Part shown: positions 5,178 to 32,273 of the stretch, in pieces
How positions within the stretch are numbered: position 1 is the stretch's first letter
Layout of the letters: every line of letters begins with the position of its first letter
DNA from: Chlorobiales bacterium
GTDB taxonomy: Bacteria > Bacteroidota > Chlorobiia > Chlorobiales > JACMJS01
DNA length: 33,600 nt
Direction: 5' to 3'
Assembly (NCBI GenBank): GCA_014380515.1
Contig: JACMJS010000116.1
Location: forward strand, 1 to 33,600
Notes under the pieces: model-generated
What the model saw: the letters and a program-made list of their open reading frames with translations, nothing else
Told to the model about the DNA's origin: nothing
The model's database searches: none
Translations under genes and position numbers: made by a program

Positions 5178-5639
5178 TCATGTTTCGGTGCTCACCCGTT
5201 CCCAAGTAATTTCATGGCGGCGGGTTTTGAGACCGCTTTTCAAATCGGCACTCAGAACCAACTGCTCGTTCTTCACCGAAAGAAACCGCACTTGATCGGT
5301 GTGTAAAATCCACGTGTGCAAACTGCCCTCGACATGATGTGTAACCGCCTCGCCGCTTGGCTCAATGCTGAACTTGCCGAAGTAGGCGATGTATCCGTTG
5401 TAAGCCGCCCGAAGTTCGTTCGCGGTTTCTTTGCCCGGCCCTTCGTGCTTCGCTCGGTCGGGGTTCATAATCTGCGCCGACATCATGCCGGACGCATCGT
5501 AGATCAGCAGGCCGACGGGCGACTCGCTATAGGGATGCAAGGTTTCGCCGGAGAGCACGCGCACCGCGTATGAAACCAACTTCCACGCGCCAACGAGTTT
5601 TTCGCGCACGAGTGCCGAGACATCTATTGAATCTAACAT
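5178..5639 (-). CDS. Lipocalin-like domain protein
   Basis: LVGAWKLVSYAVR...G..P.GLLIYDASGMMSAQIM...YFGKFSIEPSGEAVTHHVEGSL pattern of the Lipocalin_5-like family. Confidence 0.8.
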   Translation of the reverse strand: MLDSIDVSALVREKLVGAWKLVSYAVRVLSGETLHPYSESPVGLLIYDASGMMSAQIMNPDRAKHEGPGKETANELRAAYNGYIAYFGKFSIEPSGEAVTHHVEGSLHTWILHTDQVRFLSVKNEQLVLSADLKSGLKTRRHEITWERVSTET

Positions 5640-10134: not shown

Positions 10135-13100
10135 TCAAACTTTCGCGTACTTTTTTTTTGACTCGTGCTTGGGTTGCTTGGATTCGCGTCCGGCTTTACG
10201 CTTCTCGCGCCATGTTTTGTAGGTCTCCGAGATTTCCTTGTTCTCCGGCTTGCTCAAAAAACCTTTCTTGAACTTCGGATCGCCGAAGTTTTTGCTTGTT
10301 TCCAGCAAGGCTTTGCGGGCGAGGTTCAAGTACATCTCGGCTTTCTTTTCGTCCTTACGGTGAATGGATTTGAAGATGCGAAAGTAAAACGCCTGCATAT
10401 CGAACTTCGTCGTTAGTTTTACCAGCAACTTTTCCAAACGCGGCATCATCGCCATTGCGTCATCGGTGTTCTGGAGGCAAATCATTTTGCGAACGAGAAC
10501 GCCGATGAGAAAATAAAAATCCGCCGGATCGTCATCCGACATGTTATCAAGGTACGTTTGTACGTACGGCAACGCTTCCAGATACCGGTTCTGATCGATC
10601 AGGAAATCGCAGATACCGTTGTAGTAGTACGGCCACAAGGTTGGGTCGTTGGTCGCAGTAGCGATGGCGTGCGCCTTCTCGAGATACAGACGCGCTTCGT
10701 CGAACCGTTTGAGTTCAAGTAAGACGCCGAAGAACCTGAAGTAGACAAAGAAACGTGTTCGATTTTCTTCCGAAACTTTGTTCTCGTTGATGAGATTCGT
10801 ATACAAGGTCTCGGCGGATTTGAAGTCGCCGATGGTGATATAAATATCAGCAAGGTTATTAATCGCGCTGCTCAGTTGGCTACGGTCGCCGATGAGTTCG
10901 GCCAACTCGTACAGCTGCATGTAGACTTCGTAGGCTTCCTTATAGAGCGTGTTCTGAATGTAAATCTGCCCCAAGTTCGTCAGCACTTTCAAGCGAAACA
11001 GTTTATCGCCGCTCCGGTCGGTGATCGCCAAAACATCTTTGTAAACTGTTGCAGCCTGCTCTTGCTGCCCCGTCCATGAAAGTGCCACACCGACGCCGCG
11101 CAAGCCTTTGGCTTCACTAACCAAGTCGCCGATTTCCTTGGCGCGGTCATACATGCGTTGAAAAAAGATTTTCACATCGTCCCAATTCTGCGCGTAAAAA
11201 TTGGCGGAAGCGATGTTCTCGCACGCTTTGATTTCGATCTGTGGGTCGTTTAGTTCTTCGTTGAGTACGAGAACTTCGCGGCCAATGCCGTCGGCTTGTT
11301 CGAGGGCACTGACGGTAACAAGTTGCCAGCCTTTCACATTCTTCGCTTCGGCAATCATCCGCTTGTCGTTGCGGCGTTCGGCAATCGCAAGAAGTTCATC
11401 AACGACTGCTGTATGCTGCTCTTTCGGACCCTGCAAGAGCAATACCTTTTCGAAATTTTTCAGCGTCTCAAACCGCGTGGGTTCAAGTTCGGCTTTGTCT
11501 TTCGTCAATGCCAACAGGTCTTCGGAGACATCGCGGACGCTGCGGAAATCGAACAACTTGTTCGCCCGTCCGACGGCCAGCACGCCGTATTTCAACGCCG
11601 CCTGTTCTTGCTCCGCTTTGCGGTGATGATAGTAAAGATCAAAACTGTAATCGTAAAGGTCTTGTCCGAAGTTTTGCTCGATGGCTTCGGCGACGGCTTT
11701 GTGGAGCGTCTTGCGGTTGTCGCGCAACAGACTTGAATAAACCGCTTCCTGCATCGCAGTATGTTTGAAGCCGAGAATGTCCTGCTTCTCGTAAATAAAT
11801 CCTTTCTCCGACGCTTCTCTGACAATCACCGGAATTTCTCCGGCGGCGATCCTAGCGAAACTGCTGCCCGCTTCTTCGGTTACTTTTTGCTCGACGCTTA
11901 CGGCCAAGTTTCGAACGAATTCTTTGCCCATCACTGCGCCGCACGCCAGAAAATCTTTCGCCGGTTTCGCAAGCAAATCGTAGCGCGTAATCACGAGCGC
12001 ATTAATTGTGGCGGGCAACTGAAAATTTTCTACGCGTACGAACGCGAGCCGTCCGTCCTTTTCCGCAATGACGCCCTGCGCCTGCATCGATTCGATCAGT
12101 TCCTCGATATAAAACGGATTGCCTTCCGACTTCTTGAAAATTTCATCCAACACATCCGCCGGAAACGCCAGGTTCACAATCGCGCGAACGAGTTGCTCGG
12201 TTTCTTGCCGCGTGAACGGTTTCAAATCAACCCGCGAGTAATCGGCACCTTGTTGCACGCGAGCGGGCATCGTGTAATCGAGCCTATGCAGCCCGAAGAT
12301 GAGCACGGGATATTTGGTCGTGAGGTTTTCGGCAAGGAAAATAAGTGCCTCTTCCGAGACGTCATCGATCCAGTGCATATCCTCGAACTGAATGAACAAG
12401 ATTCGCTTCAGTTTTTTGTTCGAGTATTCCGCGAGCGCGGTGAGGAATTGCCGCAGCGCGACATTGACGTCGGTTTTGAACGCATTGAAATCCGTCGTTC
12501 GCAACCGTTCGTCATCATACTCGGCGCCGACCAAGTTGCCGATGATCGGTTTATAGATCGAGAGATCGACCGACGTCTGGCCGTAGAGCGATTCGTACCG
12601 CTCTTCAAAAATTTTCTTGATCGTTTCTTTATTGCGTTCGCCTTCAACTTTGAAGTATCGCTTCAGCATCGTGGAGAACATCGCATAAGGCGGCTGGGAG
12701 AACGAGAGCGTGTGGCCTTTCAGAAAAATACCGCTCGAAACTTTTTCACCGTTGCGCCGCAAGAACTCGTAAATGATGCGCGATTTGCCGTAGCCTGCCG
12801 GGCCGGTGATGGAAATAAATTTCATCTTGCCCTGCGACTGCTTGAAGCGCGAGTAGATTTGCTCGAGGTTCGAGAGTTCCTCTTCTCTACCAATGTAGAC
12901 GGCGTCTTTCCGCGAGGCTTTTTCGCGTTCCCACCGCTCTTCGCGTTTGGTGTTAATACCGGTAACTTCGTAGGCTTCGAACTTTTCCGCTTTGCCTTTG
13001 AGCGCGAGCAGCATCGGCTCGGAATAGGAATAGTTGCCGCCCGCCTGCAAGCGCACTTCGTTGCTGACGAGAAAACTATCGTGATGCGCATTGACTTCCA

Positions 13101-14202
13101 GCCGCGCGGCGGTATTGACCACATCGCCCATCGCGGTAACGTTGCCCTTCTGATCGGGGGCGATGGTTACTTCGCCGACGTTGATGCCCATCCGCACGCT
13201 CGCTTTCACATCATATTCTTTCAGCATCGCGTTCATCGCAGGTACGTTCTCGATGATTTCCATCGCCGAAAGAATCGCGCGTTCGCAATCGGCTTCCGAC
13301 GCCTCGACGCCGAAGAGCACCATCATCGAATTGCCCTGATATTTATCGATGTAAGCGTTGTATTTCTTGACCACATCCGTCGAAAGTTCAAACACCGCAT
13401 CGGCGACGGCGGCATAAAGATCGGCGGAGAGTTTATCGCCGTTGGAGTGCTCCGCGCCCAGTTCCATGAAGAACACGGTTACAACGCGGCGTTCGCCCTC
13501 TTTCAATTGCGCGGTGGCCGTGAGTTGATTGCGGAACTGGGTTTCGTTGAACGGGTGATACGGCTTGCGTACGTCGTCGTTCGCAAAGTCTTCAATCGCC
13601 GTGCCGGGCAATTCCAAACCGTCTTTGACTTTGACGGGAATCGTCTCGCCCAGCCGGAACTTGCCCTGCGGGAGTTTTTCCAAAACTTCTTTGCTCACAC
13701 ACAGTCCCAACCGCGGAGCGAAGGCTTGGAAACGTTCGGCGAAAATCGGGACGTCGCCCGTGGCGGTCAGGTTGCCTTTTTGATCGGGCGCGATGTCGAC
13801 ATGCCCGACATGAATGCCGATACGCGCGGCAATCTCAACGCCGCGTTTCGCCAGTTCTTCGTTGATGGGATTAAACTGATCCAGCACCTCTAAGGCCGCC
13901 ATGACGTTGGATTCGCAGTCGCCGTCTTCGGTGTCGCTGCCGAGGCCGAAGATCGCCGTCATCGCGTCGCCTTGGTATCGGTCGACATATGCGCCGTAGC
14001 GTTTGACGACATCGGTGAAACTCGTGAAGCACGCCGCGATGACGTTCTTGACGGCTTCGGGGTCGCCCAATTTTTCCGACATGGTGGTAAAGCCGACGAT
14101 ATCGAGCGAGAAGATGCTCACATAGCGGTCTTTCGCCTCGCGCAGTTTGACAGCCGAAGCGAGGGTGCGGCTGAACTTATCAAGGTCTACGGTTTGAGCC
14201 AT
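10135..14202 (-). CDS. Tandem class III adenylate/guanylate cyclase domains + STAND/AAA-type ATPase + TPR-like C-terminus (sAC-like architecture)
   Basis: CHD1 SIFSLDIVGFTTMS...YGAYVDRYQGDAMTAIFG; CHD2 YIDKYQGNSMMVLFG...GNVTAMGDVVNTAARLE; Walker A SITGPAGYGKSR; Walker B-like RILFIQFEDMHWIDD; long helical repeat region to the C-terminus. Confidence 0.93.
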   Translation of the reverse strand: MAQTVDLDKFSRTLASAVKLREAKDRYVSIFSLDIVGFTTMSEKLGDPEAVKNVIAACFTSFTDVVKRYGAYVDRYQGDAMTAIFGLGSDTEDGDCESNVMAALEVLDQFNPINEELAKRGVEIAARIGIHVGHVDIAPDQKGNLTATGDVPIFAERFQAFAPRLGLCVSKEVLEKLPQGKFRLGETIPVKVKDGLELPGTAIEDFANDDVRKPYHPFNETQFRNQLTATAQLKEGERRVVTVFFMELGAEHSNGDKLSADLYAAVADAVFELSTDVVKKYNAYIDKYQGNSMMVLFGVEASEADCERAILSAMEIIENVPAMNAMLKEYDVKASVRMGINVGEVTIAPDQKGNVTAMGDVVNTAARLEVNAHHDSFLVSNEVRLQAGGNYSYSEPMLLALKGKAEKFEAYEVTGINTKREERWEREKASRKDAVYIGREEELSNLEQIYSRFKQSQGKMKFISITGPAGYGKSRIIYEFLRRNGEKVSSGIFLKGHTLSFSQPPYAMFSTMLKRYFKVEGERNKETIKKIFEERYESLYGQTSVDLSIYKPIIGNLVGAEYDDERLRTTDFNAFKTDVNVALRQFLTALAEYSNKKLKRILFIQFEDMHWIDDVSEEALIFLAENLTTKYPVLIFGLHRLDYTMPARVQQGADYSRVDLKPFTRQETEQLVRAIVNLAFPADVLDEIFKKSEGNPFYIEELIESMQAQGVIAEKDGRLAFVRVENFQLPATINALVITRYDLLAKPAKDFLACGAVMGKEFVRNLAVSVEQKVTEEAGSSFARIAAGEIPVIVREASEKGFIYEKQDILGFKHTAMQEAVYSSLLRDNRKTLHKAVAEAIEQNFGQDLYDYSFDLYYHHRKAEQEQAALKYGVLAVGRANKLFDFRSVRDVSEDLLALTKDKAELEPTRFETLKNFEKVLLLQGPKEQHTAVVDELLAIAERRNDKRMIAEAKNVKGWQLVTVSALEQADGIGREVLVLNEELNDPQIEIKACENIASANFYAQNWDDVKIFFQRMYDRAKEIGDLVSEAKGLRGVGVALSWTGQQEQAATVYKDVLAITDRSGDKLFRLKVLTNLGQIYIQNTLYKEAYEVYMQLYELAELIGDRSQLSSAINNLADIYITIGDFKSAETLYTNLINENKVSEENRTRFFVYFRFFGVLLELKRFDEARLYLEKAHAIATATNDPTLWPYYYNGICDFLIDQNRYLEALPYVQTYLDNMSDDDPADFYFLIGVLVRKMICLQNTDDAMAMMPRLEKLLVKLTTKFDMQAFYFRIFKSIHRKDEKKAEMYLNLARKALLETSKNFGDPKFKKGFLSKPENKEISETYKTWREKRKAGRESKQPKHESKKKYAKV

Positions 14203-19284: not shown

Positions 19285-19421
19285 AACCCCTGTCCCGCTT
19301 CGGCGGGACGTCCCCTTTACCAAAGGGGACATTGATAAATACGTTCGATTACTCGGTTGCATTTCAAATCCTTTGCATTTTAAACACTCTCCCCTGTTAT
19401 AAAGGGGAGCGCAGAGGGGTT
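19285..19421. repeat. MITE-like paired-hairpin element at the 3' end of mcr
   Basis: Outer inverted repeats AACCCCT...AGGGGTT; left hairpins GTCCCGCTTCGGCGGGAC and TCCCCTTTACCAAAGGGGA; right hairpin CTCCCCTGTTATAAAGGGGAG. Overlaps the mcr stop codon. Confidence 0.7.
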
Positions 19422-22400
19422 ACACGGTAATGGCATTGCCACGATAGATGCGCGAGCGGTAGCGCGAATCGTCGGGCGAAGGCAGCGGCGCCGAGGTCAG
19501 CAAGCACGCGATCACAAAGCGGTCGAGTTCCTCCGCAATTTCTTCCGGCGTCTGCGGCTTTTCGGATTTGGCGCGCCGTGTAAGATCGACTTGGTTCACC
19601 GCCGAGTGATGCACGCACCGCTCGTTCTCAACGCCGAGCGTAGCCGTCAAACTGTGCAGCGCAGTCTTGATAAAATTGGCGAGCGCGAATTCTTCGGCGG
19701 TCGATTGCTGCGACGTCTTCGGTGTAACCAGCACAAGTTGCAATTCGCCCAAGAGCGAACATTTCCGCGCGATTCGAAAATGATACGTCAGTTGATTTTC
19801 AACCAAGTCTTCGAAATCTTTTTCGTTGAACACGTTTTCCCAACTGCCGTTTTTCGTTGCCACGATTTGCTTGATTACAATCGGCTCGAAGGGCATCGAG
19901 ATCACCGCTTCCGGCCTGCCGAAATTTTTTACCGCTTCATCAATCGCTTCTTCAAGTTGCATTCCAATCGCTTTGACATGCAACCGGGCGGCCTTGACAT
20001 ACTCGCCGAACTTGCGCTGCAGTTGCTCGGCGGCGTAAGTGCTTTTCGTCAGCACCACGATTTGCAACACTCTGTACTCACCGATGTAAGCCGATACAAG
20101 CGCCGATATTTCATCGATCAAGTAATCGCCGAAGATGAAAATCGTTTTGCCTTCGAAGGCCGCGAGCCGTTCGGGTTTCGGCTTGCCGAACAGTTCGCCT
20201 TCCGGCACCGTGCGGTCGAAGCGCAAGCCGCCCGACGGATGAAAGGTCTCGCCGGAAATGTTGTCCGTCGCCAAGTAATGCACCGTCGAAAGCGCGACGT
20301 CCGATTCCGTCGGCATTCGCTTCAGGTAGAGCATCGAGAGAATTCCGTCGTTGATTTTTTTGGCTTCGCGCCGCAACTGATCGTAGGTAAAAAACGGTTC
20401 GGGCGGCAGCGGTAGGTTTTCGAGAAAAGATTCCGCGATGCCTGCGCCTTCAAGGTAGCAGCCCGTCCGCAGGCGGAGAATTAGTTTTTCGGCGATGCTC
20501 CGATCCATCAGGTGCGTGTAAGAATGGCTGAGGCTGTCCGCCGTTTTGTGAATGTGATGGGCGAGATTGGTGATGCGCTGATGGACTGTCGCCGCATTTA
20601 AAATTTCATCGATGCTGTTGTGCTGCATCGCAGCGAGAATGTCCGAAACCCGCGCGCCTTCGTCCATCGCTTTGATGGCGGAAGCGTACAGATCATTGAG
20701 CCGCTTCGTCGCCAGAATCAATCTGCCGCGGCGGTCGAACAAGCCCGGACGCTCCGCGGTGCCCTGCAAGCGAATGCCGTCGACGGGACCCGGCGCGATG
20801 GCGTTGATCAAAATTTCCGGTCCTAAAAACTTGGCGAAGGATTCGGCCATCGCGCGTTGCCCCGCCTTGCTGACGGCGTAATCGGCGCGGTTCGGATACG
20901 GCACGGCCACGTATTTTTCGCCGCCGAAATAGGAACTGATGTTGAGAATATGTCCGAAGCCTTGCTTCTTCATTGAGGGCAACACTTTTCGCATCAACGA
21001 AAAATTTGAAATCATGTTCGATTGCAATGTGTGCCGCCAATCCTTCACGCTCATATCAACGACCATCTGTTCGGCGCCCGAGATGCCCGCGTTGTTGATC
21101 AGGTAATCGATGCGCCCGAAGTTTTTCAAACTGAACTCGGTCAGTTTGCCGAGCGACGATTCATCGGCGACATCGATGCCGTCTAAAATCACGACCCGCT
21201 CTTCGGGACGCGAATATCCGATGCGCCGCAAGTCAATCAGAATCTGGTTTCGCTTTTCCTCCAATTCCGATTTGCGCCGCGCCGAAAGTACGACCCGTGC
21301 TCCCGCCGCCGCCAGCATCCGTCCGATTTCCCCGCCGATGCCTTGCGAACCGCCGGTGATGACGGCGACTTTGCCCAAGTGCATTCCATAGAGCGAATCG
21401 ATCAGGCCGGTCTTGGCGGGCTGCTCCAGATGCGCGGGCAGATACACGTTGATCGCCTCTAATTGTTTCGAAGTGTTGAGCACTTCCAAAACAAATCCGC
21501 TGGCGAGATCGAAATTATTTTCATCGCGGTTGGAATACCGGAGCAGTTGATGGGCGACGAGACCGAACTTGCGTTCGCCGTTGCGCTGCGCCGTTTCCGA
21601 TTCATCGCGCCAGATTCGAATCAGCTCTTCATTGGCCGAGCGCAAAATATCGTGATAGACCGACAAGCCGTAGGCGGGTGCGGAAACGAAAACCACGCGC
21701 GGGGTTTCGCGGAGTTTATGTTCCGTCGCCGCAAAAAATTTCGAGAGCGCGGAAGCGATGGAGATTGTGCCGGTGATTTCCTGATCTAAAAATTTCGTCG
21801 CGAGGTCGTCGCTGGTATCGAGCACGTAGGCATTCTGAAAATTTTTCTCGCAGCGCGGCAAGATCAGCACGTTCTCAACCGGTTGCGGCTCGCTGGCAAG
21901 CGTCGCAAAGAAAGATGCTTTCGAGACTTCATCGGCGGCGGAAAAATGACGGATGTCCAAGTGCGGATAATTTTCTTTGGCGCGCTCATAAAACACCGGA
22001 TGTTGAAAAACGAGAATTACACTCGACTTCGTTTCGATGAATCGGTTTGCAAAGGCAATGGCGTCCGAAATCTGATCGCCCGCGATGATGAGCGTGCGTT
22101 TGTCCGTGCCGTCGGAGATGCGGAGGCGCGGGCGGCTGGTCAGCGTCGTGCGGCTCTCGGCGTCGATCTGCATGCCGTTCGTAACCGCGAAGCCGTGCCC
22201 CGCGAAGGCTTTCGAGTCGTCGCTCGCCAAAAACAAAATCGTCCCGACGACATCTTCCGGCTTCGGAAATTGCTTGACGGCAACAGCGTCGCTATCGATC
22301 CCGGCTTCACCGCCGGGTTCATCGCGGCGGTTTAAAATCATGGTGTCAAAAAAATGTTGGGCGGTTGCACCGGCGGGTTGCGACTTCAATTTATCCATCG

Positions 22401-23115
22401 CGCCGAAAACGTTTCGAATCCGCTCGCTGTCGATGGGACCCGGAAAAACGGTGTTGAGCCGGATGGCTTTTTTCGATGTGCCCAGTTCGCGTGCCAGATG
22501 CAGCGAGAGACTGTTGAGCGCGGACTTCGGTACGCTGTAAGCGGTTCTGCCGAAATACGGCGTGCGTGAAAAAATCGTCGAGACGTTGATGATGCTGCCG
22601 CCGTGCTTCATCATGCCGAAGGCCGCGCGCGTCATCAGCCATGAAATGCCGAGCAGGTTTTGAACCGCATCCGAAACCGTTTCGGTATCGGCGACGCCTT
22701 GCGCACGCAACGCTTCCAACTGCTCCGCGGCGAAAGGCAGATTCGGCAAGATTTGTTTCGGCCCGACGCTGCCCGCGTTGTTGACGAGCACATCCAACTC
22801 ACCGAATTCTTTTTGTAAATCAGCGACGGCAAGATGCACGTCTTCGGGCTTCGACCCATCGAAGGCGCGGGTGTGAAGTGCAGCGGTCAGGTGCGACAGG
22901 CCGTTGGAAAGCAGCGATGATTTAAAGGTTTCGAGTTTCTCTTTGTTGCGTCCGGTGATGATGCAAGTTGCACCTTCGGCGAGAAACCGGCGTGTGAGGT
23001 GCGCGCCGATGTTGCCCGCGCCGCCGGTGATCAAGCAGCGTTTGCCCGCCAGCCGTCCGCCGCCAGCCGCTTCGGGCGTTTCAGGTTGAACCGATGTATT
23101 TTTTTTGCTCGCCAT
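19420..23115 (-). CDS. mcr: Bifunctional malonyl-CoA reductase (tandem short-chain dehydrogenase/reductase), Chloroflexus-type
   Basis: 1231 aa. N-half: RLAGKRCLITGGAGNIGAHLTRRFLAEGA...INVSTIFSRTPYFGRTAYSVPKSALN...FPGPIDSERIR. C-half: LGKVAVITGGSQGIGGEIGRMLA...LNISSYFGGEKYVAVPYPNRADYAVSKAGQRAMAESFAKFLGPEILINAIAPGPVDGIRLQGTAERPGLFDRRGRLIL...MLYLKRMPTESDVALSTVHYLATDNISGETFHPSGGLRFDRT...ALANFIKTALHSLTATLGVENER...NQVDLTRRAKSEKPQTPEE...TSAPLPSPDDSRYRSRIYRGNAITV. Closely resembles C. aurantiacus Mcr as recalled. Confidence 0.92.
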   Translation of the reverse strand: MASKKNTSVQPETPEAAGGGRLAGKRCLITGGAGNIGAHLTRRFLAEGATCIITGRNKEKLETFKSSLLSNGLSHLTAALHTRAFDGSKPEDVHLAVADLQKEFGELDVLVNNAGSVGPKQILPNLPFAAEQLEALRAQGVADTETVSDAVQNLLGISWLMTRAAFGMMKHGGSIINVSTIFSRTPYFGRTAYSVPKSALNSLSLHLARELGTSKKAIRLNTVFPGPIDSERIRNVFGAMDKLKSQPAGATAQHFFDTMILNRRDEPGGEAGIDSDAVAVKQFPKPEDVVGTILFLASDDSKAFAGHGFAVTNGMQIDAESRTTLTSRPRLRISDGTDKRTLIIAGDQISDAIAFANRFIETKSSVILVFQHPVFYERAKENYPHLDIRHFSAADEVSKASFFATLASEPQPVENVLILPRCEKNFQNAYVLDTSDDLATKFLDQEITGTISIASALSKFFAATEHKLRETPRVVFVSAPAYGLSVYHDILRSANEELIRIWRDESETAQRNGERKFGLVAHQLLRYSNRDENNFDLASGFVLEVLNTSKQLEAINVYLPAHLEQPAKTGLIDSLYGMHLGKVAVITGGSQGIGGEIGRMLAAAGARVVLSARRKSELEEKRNQILIDLRRIGYSRPEERVVILDGIDVADESSLGKLTEFSLKNFGRIDYLINNAGISGAEQMVVDMSVKDWRHTLQSNMISNFSLMRKVLPSMKKQGFGHILNISSYFGGEKYVAVPYPNRADYAVSKAGQRAMAESFAKFLGPEILINAIAPGPVDGIRLQGTAERPGLFDRRGRLILATKRLNDLYASAIKAMDEGARVSDILAAMQHNSIDEILNAATVHQRITNLAHHIHKTADSLSHSYTHLMDRSIAEKLILRLRTGCYLEGAGIAESFLENLPLPPEPFFTYDQLRREAKKINDGILSMLYLKRMPTESDVALSTVHYLATDNISGETFHPSGGLRFDRTVPEGELFGKPKPERLAAFEGKTIFIFGDYLIDEISALVSAYIGEYRVLQIVVLTKSTYAAEQLQRKFGEYVKAARLHVKAIGMQLEEAIDEAVKNFGRPEAVISMPFEPIVIKQIVATKNGSWENVFNEKDFEDLVENQLTYHFRIARKCSLLGELQLVLVTPKTSQQSTAEEFALANFIKTALHSLTATLGVENERCVHHSAVNQVDLTRRAKSEKPQTPEEIAEELDRFVIACLLTSAPLPSPDDSRYRSRIYRGNAITV

Positions 23116-23229
23116 AAAATTCTCTCCGCCGCTGTTGCCCTTATATTATTTAATGCTGTTGAAAATTTTTCACAGCCGAAGAAGTTACAGAATAGATGTC
23201 TTTCCTAATGGTCAAGACGGTTATTTTTT

Positions 23230-23296
23230 GTCATTCCTGCGAAAGCCGGAATCTCAAATTTCGCTTTCGAAGATTCCCCACTTTCGCGGGAATGAC
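23230..23296. repeat. Palindromic intergenic element GTCATTCCTGCGAAAG...CTTTCGCGGGAATGAC
   Basis: About 16-bp imperfect terminal inverted repeats; a partial copy of the end (GGGAATGACGTAAGATTC) follows. Confidence 0.65.
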
Positions 23297-23375
23297 ATAA
23301 GACGGGAATGACGTAAGATTCTGGAAAAGATGTCCAACGACTTGTGATTTCAAAATCAAAACCAATCTCGCCCGA

Positions 23376-24047
23376 ATGCAAAAACGATTTTATTTTTTCA
23401 GTGTGATTTTGTTGCTGCTCGCAAGTGCAGCGGATGCTCAATCACAATCGAAGCCATCGCAGTCGAACGTCTTTTCGGAAACGCGGCTGCGTTCGCAGCA
23501 AACAGCGATGACGGTGCTCGGTGTGTGGGCGGGTATAAGTCTTGCGTCGGGTCTGGCACTGTCGCTACAGCAATCCAACACGGAGTTGCAATATGCGGGG
23601 TATCAAAATATCGGGTGGGGGGCGGTCAATGGCGCGATTGCCGTCTTTGCGCTCGTCGGCATCTCGCGCGATCTCGCCCTCGTTGGCGCGGCGGGCGGCA
23701 GCGAGCAACTTTTGCTGTTGAAAGAATTTTCGGAGGAGCAAACCTTCTCGAAGATTTTGCTCATCAACACGGGTTTAGACGTCGCTTACATGACGGCGGG
23801 CGGCTTGCTGATGTATGCAGCACGCAACGGACTGCAGCAGGGTGAAAAACTTTACGGCACGGGCGCGGGGATTTTACTTCAAGGCGCGTTCCTGTTCGTG
23901 TTCGATCTGGTGCAAGTCATTCTTTCCGGCAACCGGATCGGCACGGTGGAAGCCTATCTAACGCCGATGCTGGGAAATATACCATCGATCCCGTCCGGTT
24001 CCGTCGCCGCCACGACTATCGGCGCGATGCTGACAATCTCATTTTGA
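23376..24047 (+). CDS. Membrane protein with signal peptide, hypothetical (possibly DUF6992-like)
   Basis: Signal peptide MQKRFYFFSVILLLLASAADAQ; several TM segments (TVLGVWAGISLASGLALS, INTGLDVAYMTAGGLLMYAA). Confidence 0.7.
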   Translation: MQKRFYFFSVILLLLASAADAQSQSKPSQSNVFSETRLRSQQTAMTVLGVWAGISLASGLALSLQQSNTELQYAGYQNIGWGAVNGAIAVFALVGISRDLALVGAAGGSEQLLLLKEFSEEQTFSKILLINTGLDVAYMTAGGLLMYAARNGLQQGEKLYGTGAGILLQGAFLFVFDLVQVILSGNRIGTVEAYLTPMLGNIPSIPSGSVAATTIGAMLTISF

Positions 24048-25843: not shown

Positions 25844-26593
25844 TTACACGTGGCCTTTGATGGCGTTGTAATCTTTCATGACGGTTTCCAAAAACATTTT
25901 CGGCGGCATTTCGCTGCTGATGTTCATCTTGTGGCTGATGGCGGTCTTGGCTTTGAGGAGCAACAATTCTCCCTGATCGAATCCGTCGGCGCGGGCGGTG
26001 GTGAGTACTTCTTTGATGACGCTGAGATCACCGTCGGAAAGTTCGCCTGCCGCACTGAAGACGGGCGTGTAGGAATCATTGAGCCGCGCGAGAATCGTAT
26101 CATCGAGCGAGATGCGCGAGCGCAGTTTGATGACCGCCGTGCCCGCGGCAATGTCGCCCAGCCGTTGCCCTTTGCCGTTGATGACGACGACGAGAATCGC
26201 CACCGCCGGTGAGAACAAACCCGAATCAACGATCTTCAACATCCACCGCAGCAAATACGCGATGAACGACGGTTGCGAGCCGTCCAACTTCACCACTTTG
26301 ATTTGCCGGATTTTCTTGCCGAAACTTTGGCCGTCTAAAAAAATCTCGCAGAGCAAGTCGTAGAAAAATACCGGCATGTACAGCGCGAATACCACCACGC
26401 CGCCGATGTCGCTTTGGGTGAAATCACGGACGGCATCGTTGAAGAAAAGCAGGCTGATGCCGATGATGTAACCGGCAAGAATGAAGTAATCGAAGAGCGT
26501 GGCAACGACGCGGTCCCACACGCTTGCAATCTCATAGTCAATCTCTATATTTTGTGCGGTCTGAATCCCGATACTTTCCCTGACGCTTTCCAT
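25844..26593 (-). CDS. RDD family membrane protein
   Basis: ASVWDRVVATLFDYFILAGYIIG...DGQSFGKKIRQIKVVKLDG...RWMLKIVDSG...GQRLGDIAAGTAVIK. Confidence 0.9.
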   Translation of the reverse strand: MESVRESIGIQTAQNIEIDYEIASVWDRVVATLFDYFILAGYIIGISLLFFNDAVRDFTQSDIGGVVVFALYMPVFFYDLLCEIFLDGQSFGKKIRQIKVVKLDGSQPSFIAYLLRWMLKIVDSGLFSPAVAILVVVINGKGQRLGDIAAGTAVIKLRSRISLDDTILARLNDSYTPVFSAAGELSDGDLSVIKEVLTTARADGFDQGELLLLKAKTAISHKMNISSEMPPKMFLETVMKDYNAIKGHV

Positions 26594-26678
26594 TATTCCC
26601 CGGCTACTTTTTTATTGAAGTTGAAATTGCCTCCAAGATAAGTCCGCTGATACTCAACTTGACTACCGCAAACCGCTG

Positions 26679-27755
26679 ATGCGCGAAGTTGCTTTCCTCA
26701 AACAAAACGCCCAGAAGTGGAAGTCCTTCGAGGCGATGCTTCAAAGCAAAAACGCATCCTCGCCCGATGCGCTCGCCGCTCTGTTTATCGAACTGACCGA
26801 CGATTTGAGTTACGCGCGGACGCACTATCCGAAAACCAAAACGACGGCGTATCTCAATACGCTTACCGCCCGCGTTCATCAAGCGATTTACCGCAGCAAG
26901 AAAGAACCGCGCGGTCGGCTGGCACGGTTTTATCTCTTCGAACTGCCGCGCCTGTTTCGCAACTCGCACAAAGAACTGCTGTATTCATTCATCATTTTCG
27001 CGCTGGCGGTTTTGATCGGCGTCGTTTCGGCGCTCAATGATTCGACGTTCGTGCGATTGATTCTCGGCGATAGTTACGTGAACATGACGCAGAACAACAT
27101 TGCCAAAGGCGATCCGCTCGGCGTTTACAAAGGCGGCAGCGAGCTGGAGATGTTCATCGCCATCACGTTCAATAACATTCGCGTTTCATTTTTCGCCTTC
27201 GCGGCGGGACTTTGCTTTTCCGTCGGCACGGCGATGTTGCTCTTCTACAACGGCGTGATGCTGGGCGCGTTTCAAACGTTTTTTTATCAAAAGAAACTGC
27301 TCGTCACGTCGTTGCTCACGATTTGGATTCACGGGACTTTGGAAATTTCCGCCATCGTCGTCGCGGGCGCGGCGGGCCTCGCCATGGGCAACAGCATTCT
27401 CTTTCCCGAAACGTTTTCGCGCTCGGAATCTTTCCGGCGCGGGGCGACGCAAGGCGTTAAAATCATTATCGGACTGTTGCCGCTTTTTATCACCGCCGGA
27501 TTTTTAGAGAGTTTCATCACGCGCCACTACGCCGAATTGCCGCTCGCCGTCAGCCTTTTCATTATTTTCGGATCGCTCGCGTTCATCGCTTTTTATTTCA
27601 TCATCTATCCGATTCAACTCGAAACACAAGCCAGCCGCGCATCTGCATCTCCGGCGGCGGAAACCTTGCCGCGAGCAAAGCCGAAACCGGCGGTATCGCT
27701 GCAAGCCAGCGAAGTTCCGGCAACCGCCAGTGCGGCGTTGGGCATCAATCCTTAG
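26679..27755 (+). CDS. Stage II sporulation protein M (SpoIIM/DUF95) family membrane protein
   Basis: N-terminal helical region then multi-TM (NNIRVSFFAFAAGLCFSVGTAMLLFYNGVMLGAFQTFF, IWIHGTLEISAIVVAGAAGLAMG), divergent from RDD. Confidence 0.88.
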   Translation: MREVAFLKQNAQKWKSFEAMLQSKNASSPDALAALFIELTDDLSYARTHYPKTKTTAYLNTLTARVHQAIYRSKKEPRGRLARFYLFELPRLFRNSHKELLYSFIIFALAVLIGVVSALNDSTFVRLILGDSYVNMTQNNIAKGDPLGVYKGGSELEMFIAITFNNIRVSFFAFAAGLCFSVGTAMLLFYNGVMLGAFQTFFYQKKLLVTSLLTIWIHGTLEISAIVVAGAAGLAMGNSILFPETFSRSESFRRGATQGVKIIIGLLPLFITAGFLESFITRHYAELPLAVSLFIIFGSLAFIAFYFIIYPIQLETQASRASASPAAETLPRAKPKPAVSLQASEVPATASAALGINP

Positions 27756-27817
27756 AATCAGCATTTGAAATATTCGACGATATTTGAAATTTCCGGTTCA
27801 CTCAATCAACACACATC

Positions 27818-28747
27818 ATGGACGCATCCGAATTGCAATCCGCCTCGCGCACCGAAAGCCCGCGCATCGAGTTCCGCAAAACGCGCAACCTCGGCGACAT
27901 TATCAACATCACGCTGCTGTTCATGCGGCAGAATTTTAAACCGCTCGCCACGGCGATTGTTTATATCGCCGGGCCGTTCGCTTTGTTGACGGGCGTCGCC
28001 GCAGGTATCTATCAAGCCAACGTCCGCGATCTCGCCATCGGCGCGGGCGGCGGAAGTGCCGACCCCTTTGCTGCGTTCTCTCAACTTTTCAGCGTCGAGT
28101 ATTTTCTCATTATTCTTTTTTCCGTCCTTGAATCCACCGCACTTATCGCCATCGTCTATACCTACATCAATCTCTACATCGACCGACCGGATACCGAGCC
28201 GCAGGTGCAAGACATCTGGCAGGGCGTGCAGCAACATTTTCTAAAAGTCTTTTCCGCGTCGCTGCTCGCGGGCTTGCTGCTCATTCTCGGCATTGTGCTG
28301 CTGGTCATTCCGGGCATTTACATCAGTGTGCCGATTTCGTTTATCTACGTCATCATGCTGCGGGAAAACCGCAGCGTCGGCGAGGCGATCTCACGCGGCT
28401 TTGCGCTGGTGAGAGGCCACTGGTGGCAATCGCTCGGCGTGCTGGTCGTGGTCGGATTGCTCGGTTATATCGTCTCGTTCGTGTTCAGTCTTCCGGCGGG
28501 CGTGATCGGATTTGTCTCGGCGTTCAACAGCGTCCGCGAAGGCAGCGGCACCGGCGCAACGCTTTTTGAGCGTGCCCTCTATGTGCTGACGTCGATTATC
28601 TCGTCGTTCGGCACACTCATTTTTTACGGCATCGTTTATATCGCCACCGCATTTCAGTATTTCAATCTGGCCGAACGCAAAGAAGCGACCGGCCTGATGA
28701 ACAAACTTCAGGGCATTGATACGCCGCCCGCACCCAACACGTTTTGA
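27818..28747 (+). CDS. Multi-pass membrane protein, hypothetical
   Basis: 309 aa with several TM segments, positioned between SpoIIM-like and DUF4129 genes. Confidence 0.8.
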   Translation: MDASELQSASRTESPRIEFRKTRNLGDIINITLLFMRQNFKPLATAIVYIAGPFALLTGVAAGIYQANVRDLAIGAGGGSADPFAAFSQLFSVEYFLIILFSVLESTALIAIVYTYINLYIDRPDTEPQVQDIWQGVQQHFLKVFSASLLAGLLLILGIVLLVIPGIYISVPISFIYVIMLRENRSVGEAISRGFALVRGHWWQSLGVLVVVGLLGYIVSFVFSLPAGVIGFVSAFNSVREGSGTGATLFERALYVLTSIISSFGTLIFYGIVYIATAFQYFNLAERKEATGLMNKLQGIDTPPAPNTF

Positions 28748-28751
28748 GAAC

Positions 28752-29675
28752 ATGCCTGTTTTTTCCTTTGAGATTTCCGCGATCCCCCTTCTCAAAAAAG
28801 GTTGGGTAGCGTTGATTGTCGCCGGGGTGCTGTGGCTTCCGCCGCAACCGGCGCCAGCCGCCGTGCCCGATTCCGCGTTCAAACCCGGCATCGCCGCGGA
28901 CTCCGCACAGGCATCTAAATCCGATTCCCTCGGCAGCCACGGTGAGCATGATTTGTTTTATTCCAACCCGGTCTACAATCGCTTCGATACCACAACGCTC
29001 ATTTTGCGGGCGGGCGACCCGCAGGTTCGAAAAGATTCCGCGGCCATCGCGCTGCGCCGTCCCGATGCGGCCAAACTTGAAGCGTTCCTCAACGACGGGA
29101 CCTTTCATTACGACCGTCAGCCGCCGCCGACCGCGACCTTCTGGCAACTCGTCCGCTACTGGCTATGGCAAACGTTTTTCGATCTCAGCCAGAATCAATA
29201 CTGGAGTCCGTTTTGGCGCATCGTCAGTTACCTCATCTTCGGTGCCGCCGCCGTGTTCGTCATTCTCAAACTCACGCAAACCGATTTGAAAGGGTTGTTC
29301 TACGGCGGCAAAGGCGGCTCGCTCGATTTCCAAACCATCGTGGAAGATATTCACGGCCTCGATCTTGACGCCCTCATTGACGAAGCGATCCAAAACAAAC
29401 AGTACCGCCGGGCGGTGCGTTATTGTTACCTGCGCGCGTTGAAATTGCTGAGCAATCAAAATCTGATTGTGTGGCGCGCCGATAAAACCAACCGCGACTA
29501 CATTTCGGAACTGCGCCAAAGCGACTTGCGCCCCGCGCTCGCCGATTTGACAAACCAGTTCGAGCATGTCTGGTACGGCGATTTCCCGATTGATGAACCG
29601 CGATTCCTGCGGGTGCGGGCACAGTTTGATGCCTTCACCAAAACCCTCGCGTCCGATCACCTTTCGCCCCGATGA
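28752..29675 (+). CDS. DUF4129 domain-containing protein
   Basis: C-terminal YRRAVRYCYLRALKLLSNQNLIVWRADKTNRDYISELRQ...FEHVWYGDFPIDEPRFLRV; start MPVFSFEISAIPLL at 28752. Confidence 0.87.
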   Translation: MPVFSFEISAIPLLKKGWVALIVAGVLWLPPQPAPAAVPDSAFKPGIAADSAQASKSDSLGSHGEHDLFYSNPVYNRFDTTTLILRAGDPQVRKDSAAIALRRPDAAKLEAFLNDGTFHYDRQPPPTATFWQLVRYWLWQTFFDLSQNQYWSPFWRIVSYLIFGAAAVFVILKLTQTDLKGLFYGGKGGSLDFQTIVEDIHGLDLDALIDEAIQNKQYRRAVRYCYLRALKLLSNQNLIVWRADKTNRDYISELRQSDLRPALADLTNQFEHVWYGDFPIDEPRFLRVRAQFDAFTKTLASDHLSPR

Positions 29676-29679
29676 ACCG

Positions 29680-31089
29680 ATGCTGAAAGGCCAACTCAAA
29701 TATATTCTTGTGCTTTTGCTGGCGATGGTGTTGCTGGTGGTCGTACAACTTTCCACGCCGCCGCCGCTGGATTGGTCGCCGTCGTTTTCGCGCGAAGATA
29801 AAATTCCCTACGGCAATTTTATTCTGTTCGCCTTACTTCCCGACGTCTTTCCCCGCACGGCGGTCAGCATTGTGCAAGATCCGATCTACACCGTGCTTAC
29901 CGGCGACACGATTGATGCCGAAGCCCGTCTGAACCGCAACTACGCGAGCGGTTCAGACGACGCTGACGACGCTTACGATGATTACCGCGATGCTGAACCG
30001 GATTCCGCAGCGACGTTTGATTCCGCTTCAACTCGCAGTTTGTTCCGCAGTAAATCAGCGATTACGCAACGCTCGACGACTTACATGTTTATCGGCGGCA
30101 ATTACGTCGGGAGTTTTCTGCCCGATAAACTTGATGTGGAATATCTCTTGCAGTTTGTCAGCGAAGGCAACACGGTCTTCATCGCCGCCCAGCGGTTTGA
30201 CGCGTCGTTTCTCGATACGCTGAGGCTGCGCGTCGGCAATTATTATGAAGTGGCCAATCTCGGCGTGAAGACGGATAATGCGGAAACGGGCGGAGGACTT
30301 TCACTCGAAAGCAAATTGGATTCGCTCGGCATTAATTTTATCAATCCTGCGCTGCGTGCGAAGAGCGATTACCGCACGCGGCGCACCGACGGCTCGCACG
30401 CCTATTTCACGCGGTTCGATTCGCTCAAAGCCGAAGCCCTCGGCATGAACAGCAAAGGCTATGTGAACTACTTGCGGCTGCGGTTCGGCAAAGGTTTTTT
30501 TTATCTCAACACCGTGCCCTACGCCTTCACAAATTATAACTTGATGATGGCACCGAACAGCGAATACGTCTTCAAAGCCTTGTCCTACTTGCCGGTGCAG
30601 CCCGTCTTGTGGGACGAATTTTATAAAGTCGGGCGGCGCGAATCACGAACGCCGCTGCGATATATTCTCTCGAACGAAGCCTTGCGGTGGGCATATTATC
30701 TGACGATTGCAAGTGCGTTGCTGTTCATCACGTTTGAAAGCAAGCGGCGACAGCGCATCATTCCCGTCGTTGCGCCGCCGCCGAATATGGCGGTGGAGTT
30801 CGTCGAAACCGTCGGGCGGTTGTATTATCAGAACGGCGATCACAAAGATTTGGCGACCAAGAAAATCACATTCTTTCTCGATGACTTACGTTCAAGTTAC
30901 ATGGTACGCACCACCGCTTTTGATGCAGAGTTTTATGAAACGCTGGCGCGCAAATCGGGCATCGCTGAAAGCGATCTCAAAACACTTTTCACGTTTATCA
31001 CGCAACAGGGTATGCGATCATCCGTCTCCGAAATTGATTTGAAACAACTGAGCGCGATGATCGATAATTTTTACAAAAAGTCGAATTGA
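29680..31089 (+). CDS. DUF4350-like membrane protein
   Basis: N-terminal TM, LDWSPSFSREDKIPYGNFILFALLPDVFP, later TM ALRWAYYLTIASALLFITFESKRRQRIIP; ATG at 29680 chosen over the upstream extension. Confidence 0.85.
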   Translation: MLKGQLKYILVLLLAMVLLVVVQLSTPPPLDWSPSFSREDKIPYGNFILFALLPDVFPRTAVSIVQDPIYTVLTGDTIDAEARLNRNYASGSDDADDAYDDYRDAEPDSAATFDSASTRSLFRSKSAITQRSTTYMFIGGNYVGSFLPDKLDVEYLLQFVSEGNTVFIAAQRFDASFLDTLRLRVGNYYEVANLGVKTDNAETGGGLSLESKLDSLGINFINPALRAKSDYRTRRTDGSHAYFTRFDSLKAEALGMNSKGYVNYLRLRFGKGFFYLNTVPYAFTNYNLMMAPNSEYVFKALSYLPVQPVLWDEFYKVGRRESRTPLRYILSNEALRWAYYLTIASALLFITFESKRRQRIIPVVAPPPNMAVEFVETVGRLYYQNGDHKDLATKKITFFLDDLRSSYMVRTTAFDAEFYETLARKSGIAESDLKTLFTFITQQGMRSSVSEIDLKQLSAMIDNFYKKSN

Positions 31090-31198
31090 TAATCCCCCCA
31101 GCCCCCTTTAACAAGGGGGAGTTTGAATAGCGCGAGCATCGAATGGCACGCACATCGAACAATCGTTCCCCCCTTGTCAAAGGGGGTTAGGGGGATTA
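31090..31198. repeat. MITE-like paired-hairpin element between DUF4350 and moxR
   Basis: TAATCCCCCCAGCCCCCTTTAACAAGGGGGAG at left and CCCCCCTTGTCAAAGGGGGTTAGGGGGATTA at right: about 31-bp near-perfect terminal inverted repeats, each end itself a hairpin. Confidence 0.8.
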
Positions 31199-31226
31199 AA
31201 AATCTTATCACATAATCAACGTACCA

Positions 31227-32273
31227 ATGGACGCATCTACGCCGCAACCCGCCGAAACGCAACCTTCATCACCTCAAATAGAATCGCAACCGCAATCGCC
31301 AACAACGACGTTTGAAACGCGCACCGACCTTGCAGCCTTGCGGGACGCGGTGTTGCGGGTGCGGCAGGAGCTGCGCAAGATCGTCGTCGGGCAGGAGAAG
31401 ATGGCGGATTTGCTCATCGCCGCCGTGCTCTCGAACGGACACGTTTTGATTGAAGGCGTGCCGGGCGTCGCCAAAACGCTCACGGCCAAACTCATCGCCC
31501 GCACGCTCTCGATTGATTTTTCGCGTATTCAGTTCACGCCCGATCTCATGCCCAGCGACGTGCTCGGCACGGCGGTTTTCAATCCGAAGACGGCGGAGTT
31601 TTTGTTCAACAAAGGTCCCATTTTTTCGAACCTCGTGCTCATCGATGAAATCAACCGCGCTCCGGCCAAAACGCAGTCATCGCTGTTTGAGGTGATGGAA
31701 GAACGTCAAATCACGATTGACGGCACGACCTATCCGATGGCGCCGCCGTTTCTCGTCATCGCTACGCAAAACCCGATTGAGCAAGAAGGCACGTACCGTT
31801 TGCCCGAAGCGCAATTGGATCGTTTCCTTTTCAAAATCGAAGTCGGCTATCCGACGCCGGAAGAAGAAGCCGTGATCCTTGCCGAGTTTCACGGGCGCAA
31901 AAGTTTGAACCGGTTGGAATCAGTTGAAGCGGTTTTGTCGGCGTCGCAAATTGCGGCGTACCAATCGCAAGTGCGCGGGCTGCACATCGATGCGAACCTG
32001 ATTGGGTACATCGCGCAAATCGTTTCGAGCACGCGCAAGCACGGCGATATTTTTCTGGGCGCATCGCCCCGTGCGTCGCTCGCCATTATGACCGCATCGA
32101 AGGCACTCGCGGCGATGCGCGGACGTGATTTCGTTACGCCCGAAGATATTCAAGAGGCGGCCTATCCCGTGCTTCGACACCGCATCGCGCTCACGCCCGA
32201 AAAGGAAATGGAAGGCGCGAGCACCGAAGAAGTCATCGCCCAGTTGATTAAAAAAATCGATGTGCCGCGGTAA
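31227..32273 (+). CDS. MoxR family AAA+ ATPase
   Basis: LIEGVPGVAKTLTAKLIA (Walker A), NLVLIDEINRAPAKTQSSLFEVMEERQITIDG, FLVIATQNPIEQEGTYRLPEAQLDRFLFK. Confidence 0.97.
   Translation: MDASTPQPAETQPSSPQIESQPQSPTTTFETRTDLAALRDAVLRVRQELRKIVVGQEKMADLLIAAVLSNGHVLIEGVPGVAKTLTAKLIARTLSIDFSRIQFTPDLMPSDVLGTAVFNPKTAEFLFNKGPIFSNLVLIDEINRAPAKTQSSLFEVMEERQITIDGTTYPMAPPFLVIATQNPIEQEGTYRLPEAQLDRFLFKIEVGYPTPEEEAVILAEFHGRKSLNRLESVEAVLSASQIAAYQSQVRGLHIDANLIGYIAQIVSSTRKHGDIFLGASPRASLAIMTASKALAAMRGRDFVTPEDIQEAAYPVLRHRIALTPEKEMEGASTEEVIAQLIKKIDVPR

Follow-up and report, generated by a model that had tools for sequence, protein, structure and literature searches.

A predicted full-length bifunctional malonyl-CoA reductase in an uncultured Chlorobiales bacterium, with a split propionyl-CoA synthase elsewhere in the genome

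Judged by its sequence, the product of a 1231-aa open reading frame in an uncultured Chlorobiales genome is a full-length bifunctional malonyl-CoA reductase (Mcr). It is probably functional, and together with propionyl-CoA synthase (Pcs), a carboxylase and a mutase it would turn acetyl-CoA and two CO2 into succinyl-CoA in an anaplerotic or co-assimilating role. The textbook example of CO2 fixation through the reductive TCA cycle is that of the green sulfur bacteria, whose aerobic relatives are termed photoheterotrophs. Mcr is best known from the green non-sulfur bacteria, which are unrelated to the green sulfur bacteria, and is well documented in Proteobacteria. The present protein is a further member of this known family, from a lineage in which Mcr seems to have drawn little attention.

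The window, i.e. the whole stretch of 33,600 nucleotides that was analysed, is contig C169 of a metagenome-assembled genome (MAG) of 3.57 Mb in 420 contigs (97.3% complete, 2.1% contamination). The genome encodes an FMO protein (656 bits) and BchX (418 bits, above the curated cut-off), and therefore the host is by gene content a Chlorobiales chlorophototroph, of the same order as Chlorobiaceae and Chloroherpeton. The initial annotation was thus right in placing the gene outside Chloroflexota. Mcr of the same kind was found in only 7 of 297 genomes of the phylum, all of the same order and in two families, that of the host (f1) and another (f4) which includes GBChlB (G134; contig JPGV01000032) and SKYG21 (G288; contig JANWWM010000080). 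As a separate observation, recorded at G000:C179:5429-6817 (L166) for the host and also for G079, G134, G240 and G288, bchL, the gene for the dark protochlorophyllide reductase, was not found in these five FMO-bearing genomes, and a search for a light-dependent protochlorophyllide reductase, which might account for the missing BchL, gave no matches above the cut-off. The window also carries a gene for a 1355-aa protein with two N-terminal adenylate/guanylate cyclase regions, an AAA_16 ATPase and TPR repeats (10135-14202), and a cluster encoding RDD, SpoIIM, DUF4129, DUF4350 and a MoxR-type ATPase (25844-32273).

The mcr reading frame has exactly the coordinates first annotated, and its strand, which had not been given, is minus; it starts with an ATG at 23115 and runs without internal stops to the stop codon at 19420-19422 (Table 1). 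In a phmmer search against the PDB, residues 21-1231 aligned to 8hi4 (1144 bits, E = 0), which from the entry and its numbering we take to be Roseiflexus Mcr, and a full-length match was obtained to 8hjw (1082 bits). The protein is therefore a single chain of about 1200 residues that can be aligned with characterised Mcr from one end to the other, and its identity to the enzymes with solved structures is about 46-48% over the aligned stretches. No Mcr-specific model was among the matches listed in NCBIfam and Pfam, and the top matches were generic SDR families. Motifs listed in the initial annotation were present: TGGAGNIG (residues 30-37), NVSTIFSR (177-184), Y193-x3-K197, TGGSQGIG (587-594), NISSYFGGEK (725-734), Y746-x3-K750 and the C-terminal RGNAITV. 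Its two SDR modules were also there, but each of them is a pair of SDR domains, so that the chain consists of four SDR domains and one extra domain.

Table 1. Predicted features of the mcr region, in window coordinates.
Feature	Positions	Strand	Description and basis
mcr, predicted bifunctional malonyl-CoA reductase / malonate semialdehyde reductase	19420..23115	-	1231 aa, ATG start; translation, PDB match, tree, residue alignment
SDR1 (residues 1-318)	22162..23115	-	Predicted malonate-semialdehyde reductase site T180-Y193-K197 with Y187, R190, R232; Roseiflexus Mcr boundaries (PMC10470521) transferred by alignment
SDR2 (residues 319-569)	21409..22161	-	Predicted non-catalytic auxiliary domain; alignment to Roseiflexus Mcr
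SDR3 (residues 570-779)	20779..21408	-	Predicted malonyl-CoA reductase site S728, Y740, R743, Y746, K750; alignment, Pfam SDR match at residues 582-779
Extra domain (residues 780-933)	20317..20778	-	Predicted CoA-binding R782, L792, R796, K804, K920; residue alignment
SDR3 final strand/helix (residues 934-963)	20227..20316	-	Alignment to Roseiflexus Mcr
SDR4 (residues 964-1231)	19423..20226	-	R1166 (= Roseiflexus R1164, CoA pyrophosphate); alignment
Intergenic region of the divergent mcr / DUF6992 gene pair	23116..23375	.	Likely holds both promoters (predicted from position); coordinates
DUF6992 membrane protein gene, divergent neighbour of mcr	23376..24047	+	Same arrangement in GBChlB (52% identity); profile match, comparison with GBChlB

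Key residues of the Roseiflexus castenholzii Mcr have been probed by structure, mutation or simulation (PMC10470521). All 22 catalytic, cofactor-binding and substrate-binding residues that we checked were conserved in the host protein (21 in one alignment to the Roseiflexus enzyme, plus Arg1164). In the N-terminal half these are R56, D86, T180, Y187, R190, Y193, K197 and R232, and they include a Thr-Tyr-Lys set with the YxxRxxY motif. In the C-terminal half they are S590, R613, D648, S728, Y740, R743, Y746, K750, R782, L792, R796, K804, K920 and R1166, and they include a Ser-Tyr-Lys set with a second YxxRxxY and the CoA-binding Arg and Lys residues of the extra domain and SDR4. Ser179, named before for the N-terminal half, is present, but the Roseiflexus structure places the catalytic hydroxyl on the adjacent Thr180 (Thr165 in Roseiflexus; PMC10470521). 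The host enzyme thus shares its length, its four SDR domains with one extra domain and all tested residues with the enzymes of Chloroflexus aurantiacus and Roseiflexus castenholzii (8hjw, 8hi4), whereas it differs from them in sequence, in belonging to a separate, well-supported Chlorobiales clade, and in being encoded outside any operon with pcs or acc. As proposed at the outset, it is by PDB alignment, tree and conserved residues a Chloroflexus-type bifunctional Mcr over its full length.

We infer the activity, substrate, flux direction and physiology of the route from the identity of the enzyme, its conserved residues and the presence or absence of genes. Two successive reductions, each using one NADPH, are predicted: malonyl-CoA to malonate semialdehyde in the C-terminal half (SDR3, extra domain and SDR4), then malonate semialdehyde to 3-hydroxypropionate (3-HP) in the N-terminal half (SDR1). 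In an aerobic-type Chlorobiales chlorophototroph, Mcr would then act with a two-polypeptide Pcs, an acyl-CoA carboxylase and methylmalonyl-CoA mutase, the net conversion being acetyl-CoA plus two CO2 to propionyl-CoA and on to succinyl-CoA. The succinyl-CoA may refill the TCA cycle on acetate-like substrates, and the route would use up reductant, in a genome where isocitrate lyase and ATP-citrate lyase were undetected.

The partner genes were searched for across the host genome, as the initial annotation had suggested. Pcs was found as two ORFs on another contig (G000:C203), unlinked to mcr, and contig C72 carries a gene for a biotin-dependent carboxyltransferase that resembles the propionyl/methylmalonyl type but scores below the curated cut-off of the nearest NCBIfam model. 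Two large-subunit-type genes for methylmalonyl-CoA mutase are present; the B12-binding subunit was not seen on the examined stretches of the host genome. The counterpart searches for malyl-CoA lyase and mesaconyl-CoA genes came back empty: no HpcH/HpaI-family lyase (malyl-, methylmalyl- or citramalyl-CoA lyase) matched in the host genome, and the mesaconyl-CoA isomerase Mct (TIGR04253) had no match in the 10 genomes searched. In outline, then, the host encodes the first half of the 3-hydroxypropionate bi-cycle, without the glyoxylate half. The gene set is best read, in line with the earlier suggestion, as making 3-HP for co-assimilation of carbon. In the purple-bacterial literature, the segment from acetyl-CoA to succinyl-CoA is treated as TCA-replenishing (PMC8307300). 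Isocitrate lyase and ATP-citrate lyase (PF16114) were not found in the host genome. PF16114 is present in Chlorobiaceae-like and Chloroherpeton-like genomes and also in some mcr-bearing relatives (G079, G276 and G288), so loss of this enzyme alone does not explain mcr. Since the host genome is a 420-contig MAG of 97% completeness, these absences are provisional.

An alternative is that the cell excretes 3-HP or builds it into a polymer, so that 3-HP is a final product or a precursor and not an intermediate to succinyl-CoA. The host mcr does not lie beside pcs, and two relatives, G240 and G276, have mcr but no detected pcs; however, both of these are fragmented MAGs, a highly conserved Pcs is encoded in the same genome as the host mcr, and the tree of Pcs matches that of Mcr, which makes this alternative unlikely. 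In most Proteobacteria and in Roseiflexus, mcr adjoins pcs. The Mcr-Pcs pairs of Proteobacteria, both aerobic anoxygenic phototrophs and others (Erythrobacter, Porphyrobacter, Novosphingobium), represent the same first half of the bi-cycle, but theirs are adjacent genes, whereas those of the host are unlinked and its pcs is split. The mcr of G276, a Thermochlorobacter-type MAG, appears as two overlapping ORFs that join at about residue 510-517 (L014/L015, G276:C12:71343-74994), through either a frameshift error or a genuine break in the gene.

The presence of Mcr, Pcs, mutase and carboxylase homologues could also point to a complete autotrophic bi-cycle in the host. This is very improbable, given that Mct was found in none of the genomes searched and that the HpcH/HpaI matches in relatives are weak and partial rather than clear lyases; moreover, PMC12214013, citing Liu 2012, describes no autotrophic fixation of bicarbonate by Ca. 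Thermochlorobacter aerophilum. In a protein-SIP study of Mushroom Spring mats, Thermochlorobacter peptides carried a low share of the 13C supplied as bicarbonate, acetate and propionate (PMC12542760), which is compatible with a co-assimilation route but not specific to it.

The two host pcs ORFs deserve description in their own right. The first (L165 5341-8472, 1044 aa) ends just past GYGGTQRLPRLL in the hydratase domain, and the second (L165 9180-11564, 795 aa) has LKQALEIMLSGR near its start. They match residues 29-1047 and 1054-1840 of 6eqo, one after the other and over almost its whole length. The latter entry is presumably the Pcs of Erythrobacter sp. NAP1, which is one chain of 1850 aa instead of two ORFs with an intervening antisense gene. 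That gene, on the opposite strand between the pieces, encodes a CxxCH-containing lipoprotein whose match to cytochrome P460 is weak (30.3 bits, cut-off 27). The same interruption was observed in the host (L165:5341-11564, G000:C203) and in G079 (L171:3519-9770, G079:C11), which belong to different families, and the two antisense genes are homologous (49% identity). That the split recurs in two MAGs assembled independently speaks against an assembly error. Divergence of both pieces was biased to the third codon position (19/14/48% and 25/20/52% at positions 1/2/3), suggesting that both are functional. Pcs is unbroken at the split point in G134 and in the Chloroherpeton-like G005 and G087. The latter two have an intact Pcs and no Mcr, so either their 3-HP or acrylate must have another source or their Pcs is used otherwise.

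A tree of 31 Mcr proteins was built with the divergent L057 as outgroup, so that its rooting rests on one very long branch. The Chlorobiales enzymes formed one clade with support of 100, and those of Chloroflexales and Proteobacteria fell on the other side. The clade unites the host Mcr with its counterparts in Ca. Thermochlorobacter aerophilum, GBChlB and SKYG21 (69-72% identity). That the protein is an SDR fusion acting on some other acyl-CoA or aldehyde is highly improbable: its identity to characterised Mcr is modest, but every malonate- and CoA-contact residue of the Roseiflexus enzyme is kept, and the protein falls inside the Mcr family, apart from the single-domain SDRs of the host, which also answers the concern that its closest homologues might lie outside the Mcr clade. 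The Pcs tree, again with L057 as outgroup, had the same shape, with one Chlorobiales clade that also took in G005 and G087. The outgroup comes from a gammaproteobacterial MAG in which a very divergent Mcr (34% identity) is directly followed by a Pcs-like gene (L057:6124-14984).

The DUF6992 gene is the only conserved neighbour of mcr and is shared with GBChlB, in which a homologue of another window gene (5178-5639) lies about 10 kb from mcr. The host and the three Mcr relatives nevertheless differ in family (f1 against f4), and their remaining flanks are unlike. Between the host and G079, mcr differed by 26/17/57% at codon positions 1/2/3, a pattern of purifying selection. The Chlorobiales clades of Mcr and Pcs and the neighbours shared with GBChlB favour descent within the order over a recent solitary transfer. 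The initial annotation had described the gene as horizontally mobile or solitary, and this was not supported, given the Pcs on another host contig, the matching trees and the shared DUF6992 gene. That the contig is a contaminant of this MAG, in view of its 2.1% contamination, or that mcr is a very recent arrival, is scarcely credible, since GC is even along the window, mcr branches inside the Chlorobiales clade and homologues of two window genes (DUF6992 and 5178-5639) lie no more than about 10 kb from the GBChlB mcr.

The bi-cycle has been reported beyond Chloroflexota in Proteobacteria and Gemmatimonadota (PMC9802188). The marker of that survey was mesaconyl-CoA isomerase, so the Mcr-Pcs half route would be missed by design. 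In the literature searched, Liu 2012 on Ca. T. aerophilum excepted, we found neither Mcr nor Pcs reported from Chlorobiales. Rooted on L057, the two trees put the Chlorobiales enzymes outside the group of Chloroflexota and Proteobacteria, which bears on how the genes of the 3-HP route spread. We tentatively suggest that Mcr and Pcs may be an ancient 'half 3-HP' carboxylation route, passed down vertically in aerobic Chlorobiales, as deep as the Chloroflexota lineage and retained by members that were losing the reductive TCA cycle, with Pcs in some members possibly made as two cooperating proteins split inside one catalytic domain. Mcr and Pcs together would let aerobic Chlorobiales add two CO2 to acetate, which would explain mixotrophic uptake of bicarbonate.
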